A DNA stretch of 64,000 nt from Dioscorea cayenensis subsp. rotundata (taxonomy: Eukaryota; Streptophyta; Magnoliopsida; Dioscoreales; Dioscoreaceae), in assembly GCF_009730915.1 (NCBI RefSeq), contig NC_052474.1, positions 5,801,501 through 5,865,500 on the forward strand, read 5' to 3'. The position numbers and the translations under genes were made by a program. The notes under the pieces are model-generated. The model had not been told where the DNA came from. It saw nothing but the letters and a program-made list of their open reading frames with translations, and made no database searches. The first letter of the stretch is position 1. Every line of letters starts with the position of its first letter. This document shows positions 1 through 54,559 of this stretch, piece by piece.

Positions 1-3000
1 TGGTCGGAAATCAGGAGCTGTAAGCCGCCACCGGGAATCCCCTGGATTCTCTGTGGTGACTTTAATGCAATTTTTTCTGAGTTGGACAAGAGCTCAGGGA
101 ACGTGTGTTGGGATGACATTCGTAATGGCCAGAACCTCATTCGGGATTTAAACCTCGTGGAGACTCAACTCAGGGGTCGTCGGTTCACTTGGACCAACAA
201 CCAGCAGACTCCTATATGTGTCTGCCTTGATAGGTTCTTGATCTCTCCCGACTGGCTCTGTCGTTTCCCTAGGGTTCATTAATTCGGTCTCCCTAGATTT
301 GGGTCGGACCACGTCCCCATTCGTCTCGAGCTTGGCCTTCATGTGTTTAAGCCTTTCTTCTTTAAATTTGAAAAATCGTGGTGTCTGACCGATGACTTTC
401 ATGATCGGATTAAGGGTTGGTGGGAAGAGCAGCATTTTGAGGGGTGCGGGGCTTTTGTCATGTCCAAAAAGCTGATTGGTCTTAAGAAGCGTCTCAAGCT
501 TTGGGCTAAGCACACTTTCGGCTCCATTCGGGATCGTAAAAGAGACCTCCGGCATTCCTTGGACAGTTTGGATGTCGCCCGGGAATCCAGACCGCTAACG
601 GCTGATGAGTTAGGGAAAGTGGAGTCGATTTCGCACGAGCTTTCTCTTACCCTTAAACAAGAAGAAATATACTGGAAGCAAAGATCTCGGGTCAAGTGGC
701 TCCGGGAAGGTGATGATAATACTAAATTCTTTCACGCGGTCGCGAACGGTCGCCGTAACCGCAACCTCATTGCTGAAGTGGCTTTGGATGATCGTGTTTT
801 CAAGGGGGCAAAAGACATTAGGCAGGCGTTCACAACCTTTTTTCGCGCTCAATTCGGTGCTAAACGTGATTCCCGTTTGCATTTCGACTGGAATGTTCTG
901 CTCGCTAATAAACCAAGGGTTGACCTCACTTGCCTGGAGTCCCCTTTTTCCATTGAGGAGATTGCTGTGGCCACTAAGGACTTAGGGGCGGACAAGGCTC
1001 CAGGCCCGGACGGTTTCCCTATCCTGTTCTTTCAAAAGTTTTGGAACATTATCGAACAGGATTTGGTTAAATTGTGTAACGACTTCTCTAATCACTCTGC
1101 CAATTTGGAAAAAATCAACTGGGCAAATATCGTTCTTATTCCTAAAATTGATGACCCTGCGTCGGTCTCTGACTACCGCCCTATTAGCTTGATCAACGCC
1201 CCCCTTAAGATTATCTCCAAGATCCTTGCCACCAGACTCTCTAAGGTCATCGACCAGTTAGTGGATCACTCACAATCTGCTTTTATTAAGGGCAGGTCCA
1301 TCATGGACAATGTGGTGGCAGCTGAGGAAATCATCTTTAGCCTTCAAAAAAGGAATCTTGATGGGCACATCGTGAAAGTGGACTTTGCTAAAGCCTTCGA
1401 CATGGTTGACTGGGATTTCCTCCTGGAGCTTTTGGAGGCACGGGGTTTTGGCCCGCGATGGAGGCGTTGGATTGTCAATCTTCTGTTCACATCCAAAGCC
1501 TCTATCCTTGTTAATGGGTCTCCTGAAGGCTATGTCAGATACGAGCGTGGTTTGCGTCAGGGGGACCCCCTGTCACCGCTGCTCTTTGTTCTGGTGGCTG
1601 ATGTGCTCAGCTCTATGTTTAACCATGCTCTTACTTCACGCATTCTTTATGGGGTCCCGCTTGGCAGTTTTGGAAATGTTTGCCACCTGCAATACGCAGA
1701 TGACCTCATTATTTTATCGGCAGGAGGGACAGACGACCTTAGGATTATTAAGTTGATCCTTTTTATCTTTGAACTCTGGTTTGGCGATTAACCTCCACAA
1801 ATCTTGCTTGTTCTCTACCGGCTTTGGATCCCTGCCCAACCAATCTGCCCTGGACACTCTTAATTGTGATGCCAGCGCCCTCCCGATCACCTACCTGGGT
1901 GTCCCGATTGCTGGTAGAAGGCCACGTAGACAGGACTGGGAGGTTCTCATCCTCAAAGTCAAGAAAAGGCTCACCTCTTGGAAGGCTAATTACCTTTCCA
2001 TGGGTGGCAGGCTCACCCTCATCAATTCCGTCTTGACGGCAGTACCCACTTATTGGATGTCGATCTTTCGTCTCCCCAAGTGGGTGGTTCATCGTATTGA
2101 CGGCCTGAGAAGAGATTTTCTATGGAAGGGCCCTGATCTGGATAGGCCTAAATGTCGTCTGGTCAACTGGCTTAGGTTGTGTCTCCCAAGGGATCAAGGG
2201 GGCTGGGAGATCATCAACCTTGTCGAGTTCAATAGTGCTCTCCTTGGAAAATGGTGGTGGAAAGTTGTAAAGGTTGACTCCTGGTGCGGTTTGGCGCCCA
2301 TCCTGTACAACTATTTCCACCATCAACCGAGATGGAACCTCTGGGTATCCCATCATCGCTGGTGGTCTTTCTTTTGGCAAGGCATTCTCCCTTCGTTGGA
2401 AGCTTTCAGAGCCTGCCTTCACTCCCATGTCAGGAATGGTCTGACCACGCTCTTTTGGCTAGATAATTGGTACGATGGGTGTGCCCCTAAATTCCGATGG
2501 GCTGAAGCTTTCCACTCGACTACCTCCCCTTTGTGACTGTTCGGGAGATGCTTTGGGACCTCCCTTCTGGTGCTCTGGGAGACGATCCCCTATTGGCGGA
2601 ACTTAGCAGCACCTTCCACTTTGTGTCTGAAGATCTCCCTGATCTCAAAGTCTGGAAGCTCACTACTGATGGCTCGTTCACTGTCAAGTCTTTCTATAAT
2701 TTCCTTATCGGCGTGGGATCGAGATGCGTGGTCACCCCCGAGGATCTTCAAACACTTCGTTCCTCGGAAAATTGCCACTTTTGCTTGGCTGGTTTGGGAT
2801 AGGAAGATCCTCACGCTTGACACTCTTTCTGCCCGTGGCTGCAACAAGCTGCCCACTGCAACTTGTCTCCTCTGCTGCTCGGATACTGAGTCGATTGATC
2901 ATCTGTTTTTTAGGTGCCCTATGGCGAGGGATATCTGGGACCGCCTTGCACGCCTTTTCTCTTTCCCACGTATTCCCTCTTCCTGCGCAGACCTTTGGGG

Positions 3001-3515
3001 TGCTTGGCTCCGCGAGCTCAGCCCTCGGCTCACTTTGTCATGTTCTTTGATTGCTAGGGTGTTCTTGTGGCAAATTTGGCTTGCTAGAAATAACTGTATT
3101 TTCAACTCTGTTTTTATTTCGTTGCATGCTCTATTTATGAAAATTTGTCATATGCACATCTCTTGGATTCCAGTGGTCCCTGCTAGGGAATTGCACAGGC
3201 TTGAGGAGTCTATTGCTGCGGTCCGGCGCTGCATCCAGTTCTCAGGCCCCCCTCGCGAGGAGTTGGCGCCCGATAGGCACGAGGAGCTCTCCGGCTAGTG
3301 TCCCTTTGTGGCCCCGAGTCTTGGTGGAGTCCCTCCCTCCTCCCTTCTGTGTCTCGGGGTGTTTTTTCTGTCCATGTTGGACTTTTTTGTTTTGTCTGTC
3401 TGGGTCCGTTTGTTTCCACTGCTAGTGGATGGTCTGTTTGCCTTTTTTATCTTGTACTTGTTCTCTTCGTTTAATGCATTTGTGGTTTATCCACTTTATC
3501 AAAAAGAATTATCCA
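1..3515 (+). mobile_element. LINE (L1-type non-LTR retrotransposon), 5'-truncated by window edge and decayed
   Basis: This is the ORF2 part of a plant L1-like LINE, which encodes an endonuclease plus reverse transcriptase that copies the element into the genome. Seen in order: the end of the APE endonuclease (GDFN at about 55-66, SDHVPI at about 307-324), then a reverse transcriptase core (FAKAFD near 1384-1401, GLRQGDPLSP near 1550-1580, YADD near 1693-1704), then a C-terminal zf-RVT region with CxxC and HxxxxC spacing near 2860-2925. The copy is dead. A TAA at 280-282 interrupts the endonuclease frame, the frame shifts near 1765-1775, and it shifts again near 2530 and near 2750-2790. The last coding stop is at 3296-3298, followed by a 3' tail ending in a GTTTATCCACTTTATC-like motif at about 3483-3500. 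The 5' part lies outside the window. No target-site duplication can be judged. Confidence 0.93.
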
Positions 3516-4330: not shown

Positions 4331-4864
4331 AATACTAACACAAAGTTTTCGTTTTTCTCACACACGTGTGCGTGTAAGATATTTATAAAATCAAATTTTC
4401 ACAAAAATATCATGAACTCTCATTTAGGAAAATGCATTTCTTATTAAACAATGGCATTAACACCCTCCTAATTTCTAAACTAAATTAAAAAAAGAGTTTT
4501 GTAATTTAAAAAAATATATTTCATACTGCATAATTTTTAATGTTATAAATAAAAAGAAAAAAAAAGAGTTTCAAAACATGACAAAAAGAAAAAAAAAGAA
4601 AAAAGAGCAAGTATAGCAATATGCACTTTTACAGAATTAATACATTAGAATTCAAACTCTCACCAACTTTCCGCATCCCAAAGGATTTAGGATTAGTACA
4701 ACTAATTGCTCAAATAAAATGGTTTTGAAAACCCAAGGTTAGAGTTGTTAATCACCCGAACAAAGTGACTATAGCGACTGCTTTATAATTTATGCCATGA
4801 AAACTTTTCATTAATCTTAAGCAATTAATGATAACAATAATAAACAAATGCTATTAGAGAATTG
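4019..4864. other. AT-rich intergenic stretch
   Basis: No gene is recognised. It contains (TA)n tracts at about 4070-4084 and 4302-4316, a (TG)n run at 4315-4331, a palindromic CACACGTGTG block at about 4361-4370 (G-box core), and poly-A-rich tracts near 4550-4605. It ends at the assembly gap. Confidence 0.6.
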
Positions 4865-5864
4865 NNNNNNNNNNNNNNNNNNNNNNNNNNNNNNNNNNNN
4901 NNNNNNNNNNNNNNNNNNNNNNNNNNNNNNNNNNNNNNNNNNNNNNNNNNNNNNNNNNNNNNNNNNNNNNNNNNNNNNNNNNNNNNNNNNNNNNNNNNNN
5001 NNNNNNNNNNNNNNNNNNNNNNNNNNNNNNNNNNNNNNNNNNNNNNNNNNNNNNNNNNNNNNNNNNNNNNNNNNNNNNNNNNNNNNNNNNNNNNNNNNNN
5101 NNNNNNNNNNNNNNNNNNNNNNNNNNNNNNNNNNNNNNNNNNNNNNNNNNNNNNNNNNNNNNNNNNNNNNNNNNNNNNNNNNNNNNNNNNNNNNNNNNNN
5201 NNNNNNNNNNNNNNNNNNNNNNNNNNNNNNNNNNNNNNNNNNNNNNNNNNNNNNNNNNNNNNNNNNNNNNNNNNNNNNNNNNNNNNNNNNNNNNNNNNNN
5301 NNNNNNNNNNNNNNNNNNNNNNNNNNNNNNNNNNNNNNNNNNNNNNNNNNNNNNNNNNNNNNNNNNNNNNNNNNNNNNNNNNNNNNNNNNNNNNNNNNNN
5401 NNNNNNNNNNNNNNNNNNNNNNNNNNNNNNNNNNNNNNNNNNNNNNNNNNNNNNNNNNNNNNNNNNNNNNNNNNNNNNNNNNNNNNNNNNNNNNNNNNNN
5501 NNNNNNNNNNNNNNNNNNNNNNNNNNNNNNNNNNNNNNNNNNNNNNNNNNNNNNNNNNNNNNNNNNNNNNNNNNNNNNNNNNNNNNNNNNNNNNNNNNNN
5601 NNNNNNNNNNNNNNNNNNNNNNNNNNNNNNNNNNNNNNNNNNNNNNNNNNNNNNNNNNNNNNNNNNNNNNNNNNNNNNNNNNNNNNNNNNNNNNNNNNNN
5701 NNNNNNNNNNNNNNNNNNNNNNNNNNNNNNNNNNNNNNNNNNNNNNNNNNNNNNNNNNNNNNNNNNNNNNNNNNNNNNNNNNNNNNNNNNNNNNNNNNNN
5801 NNNNNNNNNNNNNNNNNNNNNNNNNNNNNNNNNNNNNNNNNNNNNNNNNNNNNNNNNNNNNNNN
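4865..5864. other. Assembly gap, exactly 1000 N
   Basis: The unsequenced run is exactly 1000 bases, which suggests a fixed-size scaffold gap placeholder rather than a measured length. Sequence on either side is AT-rich and non-coding. Any gene or repeat here is invisible. Confidence 0.99.
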
Positions 5865-6108
5865 GCAAATAGTAAATGATAGGAATGTCTTCTAAATAAC
5901 GTCCACAATAAATTTTAAAGGAAACAAGCCAGAGCTTTTAAATGCTTACATACACAGTAATACAGTAACTCTAGAATACAAAGGCAATAAAAAATTTTCA
6001 AGATATGCTGTAAAAATGTGGGAAGTATATCTTAAATTCTCTACAAAATTTGGATGCAGCAAAATGGCTACAAAATAATAAATTAGCAAACACATAAATT
6101 TCATTGCC

Positions 6109-47000: not shown

Positions 47001-48241
47001 AACCAGATACAATAGAAAGGAGCGAAAAGAGAGAGCCAAAAAAAAAAAAACTAGTATTCAAACAAAATCATAACCATAACCAATACGTTTTCCATGCTTG
47101 AAACAAGCATACATACTATATACGCAAGCTTGAACTAGCATGAATAGTAACAGCATTGGTTTCTACAAGAACCCAGGAAAGGAAGTCAGTAAACCCTAAC
47201 TAATCAAAGAGATGCATCAACGCTATTCCTTAAATAAATAAATAAATAAATAAATAAAATAAAAAATAATGATCAGAAATGAAACCCAATTTTGGAACAA
47301 TTCCATCATGTACCATCAAAATCACCATTGAAGAAGCATCAAACCAGTATCTCAAGTAAATAAACAATGAGAACACATTAAAAATCATATCAAGAAGCAG
47401 CAAATAAACCAATGTAGGACATCTCACAAGAGTTTCAGGTTGATACAACATGCATCAACTCAGTACTCCACCTAACATTCAATGATAGAATCCCAGAAAA
47501 GGAAACCAGTAAACCATAACAAATTAAAGAGACTCATCATCATTATTCTATAAAAAAATGTACAAACATAAACAATCAGAAATAAGCTCAATTTCATGAA
47601 CAACTTTCACCCTTCACCAACAACCACCATAATCACCAACTAAAGACCACTCATACCAGTATTCTAATCCAAAAAAACAAAAACAGGGAAAACCACTGAA
47701 GATCAAAACAATTTGAGGCCATCTAACAAAAGCCCCAAGGTTAATCGCAACATGCATCATCTCAATACTCCAACTAACACTCCATAATACTTCCTGAACT
47801 AATATGAACAATCAATTCGAGGCCATCTACCACAAGTTCAAAGGATGATCGCAACATGCATCACCTCGGTACTCCAGCTAGCACCCCATAACACATCTTG
47901 GACTAGTATAAACAATATATGAGCAATAATTTCTGTAGAAACCAAGGAAAAAAAACAGCAAACCTAACAAATAAAACAGACCCATCATCATTCATCCATT
48001 AAAAAAAACTAGCTTAAAGATCAGAAAGATGTCCAATTTGGGGAACAAGTCCAACATCAGACAACCGAAATCACCACTGAAGACGAATCAAACAAAAATT
48101 TCACCAAAAAATAAAGGAAAACAAGCTAAAACCCACATCAAGAAGGAGCAAACAAAGTAATGGACTACATTCAAGAATCAAAATCCAAGACAAAATTCAC
48201 ATGACGGAGAGTAGAGAGCGAGCAATCGAACCAGTAGGCAT
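37875..48241 (-). CDS. UBP6: Ubiquitin carboxyl-terminal hydrolase 6 (proteasome-associated deubiquitinase)
   Basis: The orthologue of plant UBP6/7, yeast Ubp6 and human USP14, which docks on the 26S proteasome through an N-terminal ubiquitin-like domain and trims ubiquitin chains. Eighteen exons join in phase: 48232-48241 (only 10 nt), 46828-46973, 46674-46709, 46473-46580, 45500-45600, 45255-45381, 44227-44286, 44089-44156, 43277-43327, 41945-42053, 41394-41482, 41240-41309, 39813-39893, 39606-39701, 39277-39322, 38281-38400, 38095-38169, 37875-37930. The product is 482 aa, the length I recall for Arabidopsis UBP6. Ubl: residues 1-75 (starts MPTVSVKWQKELFP). Catalytic Cys113 in LGNTCYMNS and His430 in DSGHYVAW are present, so it should be active. 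The intron after exon 41394-41482 uses a GC donor. Intron 1 is 1258 bp with internal repeats; another intron holds a TIR element. Confidence 0.97.
40468..41074. mobile_element. Candidate non-autonomous DNA transposon with short TIRs
   Basis: A 10-bp perfect inverted terminus, CATAGTTACC (40475-40484) and GGTAACTATG (41057-41066), is flanked by direct TTTAAAC copies (40468-40474 and 41068-41074, one extra A at the right). The ends carry GC-richer sequence than the very AT-rich middle. It is about 590 bp with no ORF and lies in a UBP6 intron. The 7-9 bp duplication suggests hAT or Mutator type; the superfamily is uncertain. Confidence 0.6.
43980..44006. repeat. (TA)n microsatellite in a UBP6 intron
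   Basis: About 13 TA units in the intron between exons 44089-44156 and 43277-43327. Confidence 0.85.
47140..48080. repeat. Diverged tandem repeats in UBP6 intron 1
   Basis: Two module families recur. One is AACATGCATCA..CT..GTACTCC (about 47449, 47751, 47852). The other is CAGTAAACC.TAAC..AT.AAAGAGA..CATCA (about 47188, 47505, 47957). The spacing of roughly 100-450 bp shows at least two rounds of duplication. Non-coding. Confidence 0.6.
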
Positions 48242-50212: not shown

Positions 50213-50772
50213 TCAAGACATCCACCAGCCATGCAAACCCAGCAAACTCTCATGCTGCAATGGCTTGTCATTAGCACCAGCAGCAGCACCAGCAGCAGCA
50301 GCAGTGTCAGAAGAATTCTGCAGCTCAAACACATTTGAATCAAACTCAGACAAACTACTTGAATTTGGAAAGCTAAATCCATCCAGAAGCTCTGTAAAAT
50401 GACCACCAGATGAAAGAAGAGAAGTGAAACTCTCATTGATATCAAGCATTCTCTCATCTTGATCAATCATTGTATCTGCAGTAATGAGGTTCAGTTCAAG
50501 AGGCTCTGGAGATGAGTTAAGTGAATGCTTGGAGCGTTTGGAGGATTTACGGGAGCCACCGCCGACAGGGAACGTCACGGAGAGCGCCGCCTAGAGTCCA
50601 GTATCGGCGGCAAGACTTGCAGTAATGCCTGGGGCTGGGAGAGATTGTAGTTGTTGTAGTAGCTGAATTTTGTGTTTGTAGAGTCACACCTTGGACACTT
50701 GATTTGCTGCTGCTGCTGCTGCTGTTGTTGTTGTTGTTGAGAAGTTGGCAATGCAGTTGAGTTTTGCATCAT
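50213..50772 (-). CDS. Dof-type zinc-finger transcription factor, reading frame interrupted by two 1-bp insertions
   Basis: Dof proteins are plant-specific DNA-binding regulators that recognise AAAG cores through one C2-C2 zinc finger. The locus starts [11 protein letters not shown], then a run of 12 Gln encoded by CAA/CAG repeats (about 50704-50740), then [12 protein letters not shown]. After QP the frame shifts because of an extra C in a CCCC run (50631-50634 on the plus strand), and shifts again in a CCC run (50568-50570). In the successive frames the rest of the domain is still legible (CKSCRRYW, then [15 protein letters not shown]). The two extra bases would correspond to a protein of about 185 aa with a C-terminal poly-Ala tract and an HGWWMS end. 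The Cys normally in KFCYYNNY is Ser. Translated as given, the protein stops inside the Dof domain. Assembly error or a true pseudogene are both possible. A 5' UTR intron acceptor (GCAACAG) lies at about 50792. Confidence 0.8.
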
Positions 50773-50791
50773 TGAAGATCAAATCTTTGAG

Positions 50792-52184
50792 CTGTTGCAA
50801 AGAAAAATGAAGAATTAAATATCACTGAATTATAAAAATAAATCTCTGTAAACATATTTTTTTGAATCATTGAATTGAAAATAAGAAAACAAAGCAACGG
50901 ATAAAAAGATCAAAAGTTGTTTCCTTTATTGACAAAACTAAAGATTAAACAGGGTGATCGACGCAATTGGAATACCTGAGAACAAAGGAGTATGAACTTC
51001 ACTCATGAACATCAAAAAACAAAAACAAGAAGCACATAAATGGAGGATTATTGGGATGAAAATTGGTTCCTTTTTTGAGAAATCCAAATATTTTAGCAGA
51101 AAACACAAACAGAGTAATACTTAAGGACCACTTGAATAACAATTTTGAATGAACTTTATTCATGAATATCACCAAACAAACAGCACAATGTTTTTCCCTT
51201 GAAAAAGCTGGTTTTTTTTTTGGACCAATCCAATGATTTAAGTAGACTAATAAATAAAAACAGAAAAATACCTGAAAAATACCTGAGAACCAAAAGAATA
51301 AAAAAGTTTCATGAACTTTATTCAAAAACATAACCAAATAAACACAATGATTTTGGTTCCTGTCTTGATAAATCCAAGGATTTTATCAGACTAACAAACA
51401 CAAACAAAAGAACACCTACGAACAAAAAGAGTAGCAATGTTACATGAACTTCATTCAGAAACATCACCAATCAAACACCTCAATGTTTTTGGCTTAAAAA
51501 AACTGGTTCCTTTCTTAATAAATCCAAATATTTTATCACACTAATAAGCACAATCAGAAGAATACCTGAGAACCAAAAGGAGTAAAAATGTTATGAACTT
51601 CATTCAAGAAAATGACCAAATAAAACAACACCATATTTTTGTCTTGAAAAACCTGGTTCCTTTTCTTCACAAATTTTAAAGATCCTAGCAAACTAATAAA
51701 CACAGACAGAAAAGAATACCTGAGAACCAAAAGAGTAACAACGTTGAATGAACTTCATTCAAGAACACCACCAAACAAACAACACAATGATGTTTATGGC
51801 TTAAAAAAGCTGATTCCTTTCTTAACAAATCCAGAGAGTTTAGCAAAATAATAAATACAAACAGAAAAGAATACCTGAGAACCAAAAGAGTAAAAATGTT
51901 GAATGAACTTCATTCAAGAACACCACCAAACAAACAACACAATGATGTTTATGGCTTAAAAAAAGCTGATTCCTTTTCTTAACAAATCCAGAGAGTTTAG
52001 CAAAACTAATAAACACAAACAGAAAAGAATACCTGAGAACCAAAAGAGTAACAATGTTGAATGAACTTCATTCAAGAACAGTACCAGACAAACAACACAA
52101 AGTCTTTGGCTTGGAAAAAGCTGCTTCCTTTCTTGACAAAACTAAAAAGATATCATCAAACTACTAATCAACAGAAACAGAATA
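50792..52184 (-). other. Probable 5' UTR intron of the Dof gene
   Basis: An acceptor TTGCAACAG ends at 50792, 19 bases upstream of the first Dof ATG. The likely donor is CTCAG|GTATTC at about 52184, at the end of a leader with plant-like TATATATTTG upstream (about 52430-52440). Almost the whole intron is the about 153-bp repeat array, and each unit contains another CTCAG|GTATTC-like site. The choice of donor is inference. Confidence 0.45.
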
Positions 52185-52215
52185 CCTGAGAGCAAGAAGT
52201 GCATGAGCTTCATTC
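50960..52215. repeat. Array of 8-9 tandem units of about 153 bp
   Basis: Unit landmarks on the plus strand are AATACCTGAGAACCAAAAGAG, GAACTTCATTCAAGAACA, CAAACAACACAATG, TGGCTTAAAAAAGCTG and TCCTTTCTTAACAAATCCA. ACCTGAG landmarks fall at about 50974, 51281, 51564, 51718, 51873, 52031 and 52184, with degraded ones near 51113 and 51413. The two units at about 51720-52030 are nearly identical, so the array has expanded recently; the outer units are more diverged. Confidence 0.92.
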
Positions 52216-54559
52216 ATGAAAATAAAGAAACAAACACAAGACAAATGGAGAGAAGAGAAAGCAACGGATGAGTGAAGAGAATGGAGAGTTGGTGGGTGGG
52301 TGCTATAATGGCCAAGGATTGCTTGGTTTGGACAACAGAGGCAATGGATATGTAGAGTGAACAAAGGGCCCCGGGTTTCACGAGAGCTCCTTCAGCCATT
52401 GATTATGGCTTTAGATACACGCTCCAAAAGCAAATATATAAAAAATAAAAATAAAAATACTAATAAAAACACCAAGCAAACCAGTAATATTACTGTTCAG
52501 ATCTTTTTATTAAAAAAAAAAAATTTTAAAAAAAAACCTTAAATATCAGTGCTATTTGCAAATATCCTTTAGTTATTGGCCAATATTAATTAATTTTGGT
52601 TAAAAAACTTTACCAACTCTTTGAAAAACCAAAACTACCCTTCCCTCCTTCCCATGAGCTTCCATTCACATGTATGTAAATATAAATGCAAAAAGTTTTT
52701 AACATAAATCGAGGGTTACCAATGACCTTTTTTTTTTGGTTATATTATACTCTTTTCTTTTCGTTTCATTATAACTGCTTATCTTAATTGTTTTTAAAAA
52801 AAATAAGAAAATAATTTAAATTAAAAATATCATTCATATTTAGTTTCCATTTTTTTTTTTATTTTTTTCATTTTTCATCCACTAAAATTATGATTTAAGG
52901 TTAAATTTTAAAATTAATTTTTAAATTATGTATATGGACAAATAATTTGTGATACGAAAAAAAAAATTTTAAAATGCACACAGGTCGAAAGTGAACTTTA
53001 TCTTCTCAGCTGTTATTTGTTCTTTTATTTACTCTTCACTTTAATGTTTTTTTTTCCTTTTAGAGTGTGCTTCATCTTTGGTTACTGCGTCCTGTCTCTT
53101 GCTCATTTTATTTGTTTTATTTTTTATTTAGTTTATACTGTTTTTTTTTATATAAATTAGTGATTTATCCATATTATTAAAAAAAAATGTACGTCGACCC
53201 TGAGAGAGAGTATATACTAATGTTTGTTTAAAAATGTTACTAAATCTTTGAAAAACCAAAAGTACCCATCACTCCTTCCCCTGAACTCATTGAGATTTCC
53301 ATTCACATATATATACATATAAAAATGAAATAAATGTAGAAGAAAATTTCAGCCATAAATTGAGGGGTATATATGGAATAAGAAAGAGGGGCAAATATGA
53401 ATATGATAGCATAGCAGTCAAGTGTGCAGACATCTTCTTGTTTGTATCTCAAGGATCATAAGAGGTGGTAATGGTGGTGATAGTGGTGGTGGTGCCTATG
53501 GAGGGGTGTGACCTCCCAATTGTAGCTATCCTTGGGAATCAACTCTTTTGTCAGTGAGTGTATGTATCAATTCAAGACTCCATTCTGGTCACACATTTCT
53601 CAAAGACTCAAAACACCTGCTCTTCCCTCTCAGTCTCAGACTCTCACTCCCATCCCTCAACTAAAAACAAATTCATTTAATGCCTCAACAAATTTCTATT
53701 TTTTATTTTTATTATTTTATTTTGTTTTATTTTATAGTGTGTACAAACAACCACATAGACCTACAACACTTATTGAGAGACAATTTGATTGTCTTATTCT
53801 CGTATAAGAATCAAATACTTTTATTGCTCGATCATTAAAATATCAGCGAATTTTATACATATTATTGTTATTTATTTATTAAAAATAATAGCACATCTCT
53901 ATCATCCTTTCAATTTTTTAGAAAATTAACATTGAAATTTATTAAATTTTAAAAGAATCTTGATTTTTAAAACTCGTATTTTTAAATTACATGTGCACAC
54001 AGTGACACACTCTATGGCTCGGTACTAGGGTATTTTTTAATATTTATTAAGTTTTTGAGAATATATAACCTCATAAAAAAAATTAAATAAAAACGCCAAA
54101 GGGATTATTTTTTTTTAAAAAATGAATAAACTATATTCATTAACAAAGAAAAAAAATACATAAAAAACAAAGCATAAACAACAAGAGCCAAACTCTACGA
54201 TGAAGGGATTATATGATGAGGATGAAAATATATAAAGAGATTTTTGTAGTTTTTCTTTTATTTGTTTGTATGCTCCTCAAAATATATCTAATTATTTATT
54301 AGCCTCTGTTTTATAAAAAAAATATGTTTATTACCCAATTGATCTAGAATAAATAGATGTCCATGTCAAGAAGACAATGGAAATCACCAAAATTTTAAAA
54401 TAGCGTTCACAATTAATTTTTTTTTATTCTTAAAATCACAAATAAAATATACTTATTTGCTTCTTAAAATACCCCTAGCAACGGTAAATAGATGTCCATT
54501 ATACTTGATTTCTGATCAATCAAAGGATTTTTGGTCATTTCACATATAAAAGGCTAACT
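52216..54559. other. Dof promoter and AT-rich intergenic DNA
   Basis: 52216-52400 is the probable Dof leader. It carries an upstream ATG at 52397-52399 opening a 61-codon ORF that would be a uORF if transcribed. Beyond this no gene is seen. 53460-53500 is GGTGGT-rich. Confidence 0.45.
52975..53190 (+). mobile_element. Possible LINE 3' tail remnant
   Basis: It ends in GTGATTTATCCATATTATTAAAAA, similar to the tail of the LINE at the window start (GTGGTTTATCCACTTTATC). No coding part is legible. Low confidence because the match is short. Confidence 0.3.

Follow-up and report, generated by a model that had tools for sequence, protein, structure and literature searches.

The leader intron of a Dof gene in the window analysed here (a 64,000-nt stretch, C4:5801501-5865500 of a 584-Mb plant genome assembly) is mostly occupied by nine repeat units spaced 133-163 bp, the first of which spans the predicted end of exon 1. 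On balance, we favour the explanation that the junction of exon 1 and intron 1 was duplicated in tandem and that at least some of the internal sites are spliced beside the direct 52185-to-50791 splice. Origin of the array by tandem duplication of this junction is well supported by the alignment of the units, and splicing at the internal sites is predicted from sequence. The first-pass annotation had described repeats with an acceptor and a donor back to back in the Dof leader, and had proposed that the end of exon 1 was copied 8-9 times into its own intron. Both claims hold: the nine units all lie on the minus strand, eight of the nine have an intact AG|GT with nothing between the two sites, and, counting from U1 at the putative exon end, there are eight head-to-tail copies.

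The Dof gene lies on the minus strand and is predicted to consist of leader exon 1, the leader intron and coding exon 2. The putative exon 1 (52186-52417, last base 52186) would start at about 52410-52417, as suggested by a TATA-like stretch ahead of it (52435-52440), its strong donor and the common start of several transposon-borne copies of the leader described below. The predicted leader intron (50792-52185, GT...AG) is 1394 nt long with 45% T on the gene strand. The likely acceptor of exon 2 (50213-50791) is at 50792|50791, with the start codon at 50772 and the stop ending at 50213. The coding region, assigned by frame reading and a profile match, runs through three successive frames: the N-terminal piece matches the Dof zinc finger PF02701 (profile positions 2-24 of 59, E 5e-10, 39.8 bits versus a cutoff of 26.6), and the rest of the domain continues in the two further frames. 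Both of the frame breaks that split the domain (50213-50772, minus strand) are next to C runs. They seem more simply explained by assembly base errors, with a recent pseudogene as an alternative reading that still has to be reckoned with.

Exon 1 carries four upstream ATGs (52186-52399, minus strand), one of which opens a 61-codon frame. Two others open frames of 16 and 13 codons, the stops of which would overlap the Dof start codon after exon 1 is joined to exon 2. Elsewhere in the window, long open frames resembling LINE reverse transcriptase, as read from their translation, occupy 343-3298 on the plus strand; a run of about 1000 N at 4848-5879 marks an assembly gap; and a two-copy 104-bp tandem repeat with 80% matches lies downstream of the Dof gene at 47709-47916.

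In transcription order, the units and their boundaries, the second number of each boundary being the first base after the AG, are U1 (52078-52230, boundary 52186|52185), U2 (51920-52077, 52033|52032), U3 (51765-51919, 51875|51874), U4 (51611-51764, 51720|51719), U5 (51461-51610, 51566|51565), U6 (51328-51460, 51416|51415), U7 (51165-51327, 51283|51282), U8 (51021-51164), in which the junction is broken and the corresponding base is 51119, and U9 (50865-51020, 50976|50975), whose downstream edge is arbitrary. The resulting spacing from U1 to U9 is 153, 158, 155, 154, 150, 133, 163 and 144 bp. Tandem Repeats Finder called 51357-52191 at period 155 and 51390-52140 at period 313, which takes in only the better-matching part of the array. 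Seven of the nine units (U1-U5, U7 and U9) share the exact core CTCAG|GTATT. The core of U6 is CGTAG|GTGTT, giving the weak donor GTGTTC, and in U7 an 11-nt micro-duplication adds a second AG|GT at 51271 (donor 11.1, acceptor 8.3 on the scale introduced below).

With gaps counted, identity is 0.59 between U1 and U2, 0.97 between U2 and U3, and 0.42-0.55 between U9, the most divergent unit, and the others; no pair except U2/U3 exceeds 0.81. U2 and U3 agree in 153 of 155 letters and differ by three one-base gaps. The near-identical units reported by the first-pass annotation are thus real, although they span 51765-52077 and not 51720-52030. A 12-13-nt insert found in the inner units is missing from the end units U1 and U9, and U9 is closer to U1 (0.55) than to any inner unit (0.42-0.47), a pattern that suggests an array with old ends and a middle that is turning over. 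We compared 29 of the 36 other Dof places in the genome (L009-L037, about 1.5 kb either side of the match) and found no such array among these 29. Their tandem repeats of period 40 or more have periods of 41-85 only. Nor is the leader common to these paralogues, since across the 29 loci neither exon 1 nor U1-U2 had a match better than one of 36 bp (E 4.6e-4).

To judge the strength of the sites we used scoring tables made from actin introns of the same genome, a small set of 20 donors and 19 acceptors from which one doubtful row each had been dropped, and in which the retained locus L086 is possibly not an intact actin. Donor and acceptor were both above the lower-quartile thresholds of these reference sites in seven of the nine units, with U6 and U8 failing. 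The donors of U1 (that is, of exon 1, at 52185), U2-U5 and U9 all score 9.7, higher than 13 of the 20 references, and that of U7 scores 11.1, higher than 17; among all GTs of the window, these seven rank at the 99.4-99.8th percentile. The U6 donor (3.5) is below all 20 references, and U8 scores -6.2 as a donor (-2.0 one base earlier) and -3.2 as an acceptor. The acceptors of U2-U7 and U9 (9.8, 10.8, 9.8, 10.3, 10.1, 11.2 and 9.6, respectively) exceed 12-15 of the 19 references, and all seven outscore both the acceptor-like site of U1 (8.2) and the exon-2 acceptor (7.4).

A second cut-off, the reference median minus 1.5, was applied in a scan of 50790-52420. Apart from the exon-2 site, all acceptors that passed belong to the array; U7 has two of these nine, and U8 has none. 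Eight of the donors that passed are likewise array sites, the only other one being 51652, an unrelated strong donor in the body of U4 (donor 9.9, acceptor -1.0). Of the 379 AGGT sites on the two strands of the 64-kb window, 33 passed the lower quartile on both scores. Eight of these 33 fall in the 1.2-kb array on the gene strand, where they make up 8 of the 11 AGGT sites, a density of strong sites that is more than chance. Since the actin genes of this genome have donors such as CAACAG|GTATTT and acceptors such as ACAG|GTATT, a site of the AG|GTATT type is ordinary for the species. The unit length of 133-163 nt likewise fits ordinary introns of the same genome: eight of the nine actin introns in one listing are 77-190 nt long, the ninth (700 nt) being doubtful, and a second actin set has at least one longer intron.

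As the alignment shows, a segment of about 150 bp that covers the end of exon 1 and the first part of intron 1 was duplicated in tandem, presumably by unequal exchange or slippage, and amplified to nine units. Because the exon end is pyrimidine-rich and closes in CTCAG|GT, each copy carries an acceptor that adjoins a donor without an intervening exon, and each unit-to-unit step would be a plant-sized mini-intron of 133-163 nt. With zero nucleotides between acceptor and donor, joining exon 1 to an intact unit would restore the same kind of donor. Stepwise, out-of-order and single-step removal of intact units would then all give the same exon 1|exon 2 mRNA, which would make extra units nearly transparent to splicing and allow the length of the array to drift. 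A site that failed would leave units with upstream ATGs in the leader, so weak selection may keep the sites: with splicing from donors further along the array, the leader would lengthen from 244 to up to 1454 nt and its upstream ATGs would increase from 4 to 19, taking the start to be 52410. Duplication would be nearly free while the sites function and costly once they fail. If the Dof gene were dead, selection on its splice sites would not be expected and this argument would be weakened.

We offer more tentatively, as a proposal with the balance against it, the stronger version in which eight zero-nucleotide recursive sites arose in a plant from one duplicated junction, the intron is removed about 150 nt at a time, and the number of copies governs how much RNA escapes as upstream-ATG-rich leaders. 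The intron is only 1.4 kb long, compared to typically more than 10 kb for known recursive sites, and its length therefore does not require stepwise removal. Since the donors are so alike, it is just as open whether units stay in and the leaders form a ladder.

The pattern of conservation across the units bears on whether the sites are used at all. Averaged over pairs of the nine units, mismatch comes to 0.106 for the splice core and 0.060 for a TGAATGAAGTTCAT block that sits upstream of it, as against 0.404 elsewhere. Step counts on the tree of units gave 5 in the 10 columns of the core (p 0.016), 1 in the 4 columns of AGGT (p 0.044) and 4 in the 14 columns of the TGAATGAAGTTCAT block (p 4e-5), compared to 1.40 per column in 109 other columns. 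With the inner units alone, the core stands out only weakly, ranking 8 of 147 windows (p 0.014). Conservation is highest in a block other than the splice site, which counts against a splice-driven reading. The block ends in YTNAY, a branch-point-like word: in U2-U8, TTCAT precedes the AG by 29-31 nt, and in U9 and U1, the units without the insert, TTCAT or CTCAT precedes it by 18-19 nt. Since YTNAY is degenerate, we treat this match as a lead and not as proof. Gene conversion or common ancestry could also be the source of the pattern, and, because donor and acceptor use the same letters, selection specific to the acceptor is inseparable from selection on the donor. Within the best-conserved block, U2-U4 each carry a palindrome, TTGAATGAAGTTCATTCAA, with 9-bp arms (52042-52075, 51887-51917 and 51732-51762, minus strand). 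We make no claim for it as an element in its own right, as arms of at least 9 arise in 12 of 200 shuffles.

It is rather unlikely, though less so than any other competing account, that the repeat is inert with respect to splicing, that is, a chance duplication in which splicing runs straight from the first donor to the last acceptor and the internal sites are left over as relics. Two of the nine units do not fit the explanation that we prefer, U6 with its weak donor and U8 without a junction, and their decay speaks for relics, as does the fact that a 1.4-kb intron needs no stepwise removal. Recent homogenisation of the kind seen in U2/U3 could, moreover, explain the conservation. However, U9 keeps 10 of 10 core positions at 58% overall identity to the consensus, and a spliceosome that bypassed all seven internal acceptors in favour of the weaker exon-2 acceptor would need explaining.

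Less probable again, and in our view a minor contender, is that units are retained as 133-163-nt exons or as extensions of exon 1, and that the resulting upstream-ATG-rich leaders tune translation. The identical donor score of 9.7 in U1-U5 and U9 would suit such a ladder, as would the increase in upstream ATGs calculated above, and in fly, inclusion is reported to be decided by how the ratchet donor competes with the donor that follows it (PMC8605326). However, the unit lengths have no frame pattern, only three of the eight steps being multiples of 3, and an exon of zero length favours full removal.

We consider it very unlikely that the array serves intron-mediated enhancement, with the units as copies of an expression-raising motif and the splice sites merely carried along. 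The leader intron is promoter-proximal, and copies of TTNGATYTG are reported to raise expression in proportion to their number (PMC6760150). In the intron this motif has 12 one-mismatch matches where shuffles give 5.2 on average, and the other strand has none. Yet there are no exact matches in the intron, the 12 lie inside the range of 300 shuffles (maximum 13), matches with two mismatches show no excess (43 versus 43.0), and matches in sister copies are not independent of one another.

Exon 1 and the first units are also present at no fewer than four places outside the gene: C9:24528460-24528992 (L007:5461-5993), C11:2051937-2052246, C17:12854604-12854934 and C1257:24540-24871. The copies on C9, C17 and C1257 all start at the base corresponding to 52417, and the C11 copy starts inside exon 1, at 52223. 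Those on C9 and C11 contain two units, and those on C17 and C1257 one unit with an internal deletion; in the C9 copy, U1 runs without a break into a U2/U3-like unit and then into the first part of a third. The C17 copy has inverted repeats on both sides that match at 81% over 157 bp, as well as a perfect 9-bp target duplication; the C1257 copy is likewise flanked on both sides (74% over 192 bp), and related repeat sequence lies on one side only of the C9 and C11 copies. We take leader copies with flanking inverted repeats to be the marks of a Pack-MULE, a Mutator-like element that carries gene fragments. Template switching by a LINE, considered for the C9 copy on account of a downstream LINE, was abandoned once the adjoining repeat had been recognised as a terminal inverted repeat.

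All four copies have CT in place of the U1 donor GT, which makes a single captured, unspliced fragment their probable source. The same change removes a cluster of splice-site changes in the C9 copy as evidence, since the donor change is common to all four and not independent. From the content of the copies, the gene at the time of capture contained U1 followed by a second unit and, at a minimum, by the beginning of a third one. One clean change is common to U2 and U3 and absent from the captured second unit (bootstrap 78, with C9 and C11 used; of the four columns in which U2 equals U3, two are unit edges and one is ambiguous among the other units). This is suggestive, no more, of a U2/U3 duplication younger than the capture by the transposon; the C9 copy alone is ambiguous on the point, its gap states matching U3 and its letters U2. 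The ongoing expansion proposed by the first-pass annotation has suggestive support in so far as U2/U3 look like a recent duplication. Relative rates, with 6 changes in the C9 unit versus 1 in U2, and 4 versus 2 for U1, involve too few changes to demonstrate constraint.

These copies also speak to the possibility, raised by the first-pass annotation, that the array is an artefact, a repeat collapsed or expanded in an error-prone assembly. The two Dof frame breaks do suggest base errors, and U2 and U3 are nearly identical apart from three one-base gaps. Against this, all other pairs of units are no more than 0.81 identical, and separate copies carry array units, the one on C9 contiguously, so the array is hardly an assembly artefact; we regard this account as even more improbable than enhancement. 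An intronic snoRNA cluster was rejected because it yielded two chance-level matches only (E 0.24 and 0.98; 21.3 and 27.8 bits versus gathering scores of 45).

The closest known relative of the array in its origin is the potato RdRp gene, in which a tandem duplication across an exon-intron boundary is reported to have produced a new intron whose splicing was shown by RNA reads (PMC4974935). In the Dof gene, as in that plant gene and in the Rogers model, the segment duplicated in tandem spans an exon-intron boundary and brings the splice signals along, and the nine-unit alignment identifies the Dof array as a tandem duplication bearing an AGGT junction. Unlike the potato case, where one duplication at the 3′ side of an intron gave one new intron, the Dof array repeats a 5′ junction nine times within its own leader intron, and the splicing of its units is a prediction. 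The Pack-MULE family differs from the array in kind: it has placed copies of the Dof leader beside inverted repeats at four places and is a carrier of copies, not the array itself.

In the arrangement of its sites, the array resembles ratchet points, where the acceptor AG is directly followed by the donor GT, a donor is regenerated at each step and a downstream donor can define a cryptic exon. Recursive sites are on record from fly, mouse and human, as a rule within introns of more than 10 kb (PMC13149111), and ratchet splicing in fly is reported to need a cryptic exon with a downstream donor, competition between donors setting inclusion (PMC8605326). Since each Dof unit supplies such a downstream donor, mostly of the same sequence, partial inclusion of units is a live prediction. 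The array has AG|GT in eight of nine units and usable strength in seven of nine; unlike the known ratchet points, which were shown by experiment and typically sit in introns of more than 10 kb, its candidate sites arose in tandem and lie in a plant intron of only 1394 nt. In the literature searched, no paper brings together recursive splicing, minisatellites, tandem repeats and introns, and recursive sites in plants were not announced in the titles or abstract openings of the listed papers that mention both recursive splicing and plants, which is not proof of absence; PMC4674806 invokes the recursive splicing model.

A third comparison is with human IFI6 (6-16), in which a minisatellite is reported to provide multiple splice donors (PMC4526556). 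There too, as described, a tandem repeat stands at an exon end, and its units act as alternative donors; in the Dof array, seven of the nine units have candidate donors that score at least 9.7. The repeats of the IFI6 minisatellite are reportedly short, about 12 bp. The Dof units, by contrast, are about 150 bp long and have an acceptor as well as a donor, IFI6 being described for its donors. The ingredients are thus known separately, as AGGT tandem duplication, the IFI6 donor minisatellite and fly ratchet points, and their combination in a short plant intron appears to be new. The array joins two ideas that have been studied apart, the gain or growth of introns by tandem AGGT duplication and recursive splicing, and, if the stronger version of our proposal is true, it would represent a self-expanding, splicing-neutral mode of intron growth. 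With sites of the same ancestry graded from strong to dead in one short plant intron, it would make recursive splicing in plants directly testable, along with whether the order of splicing matters and how an intron lengthens without harm to the mRNA.
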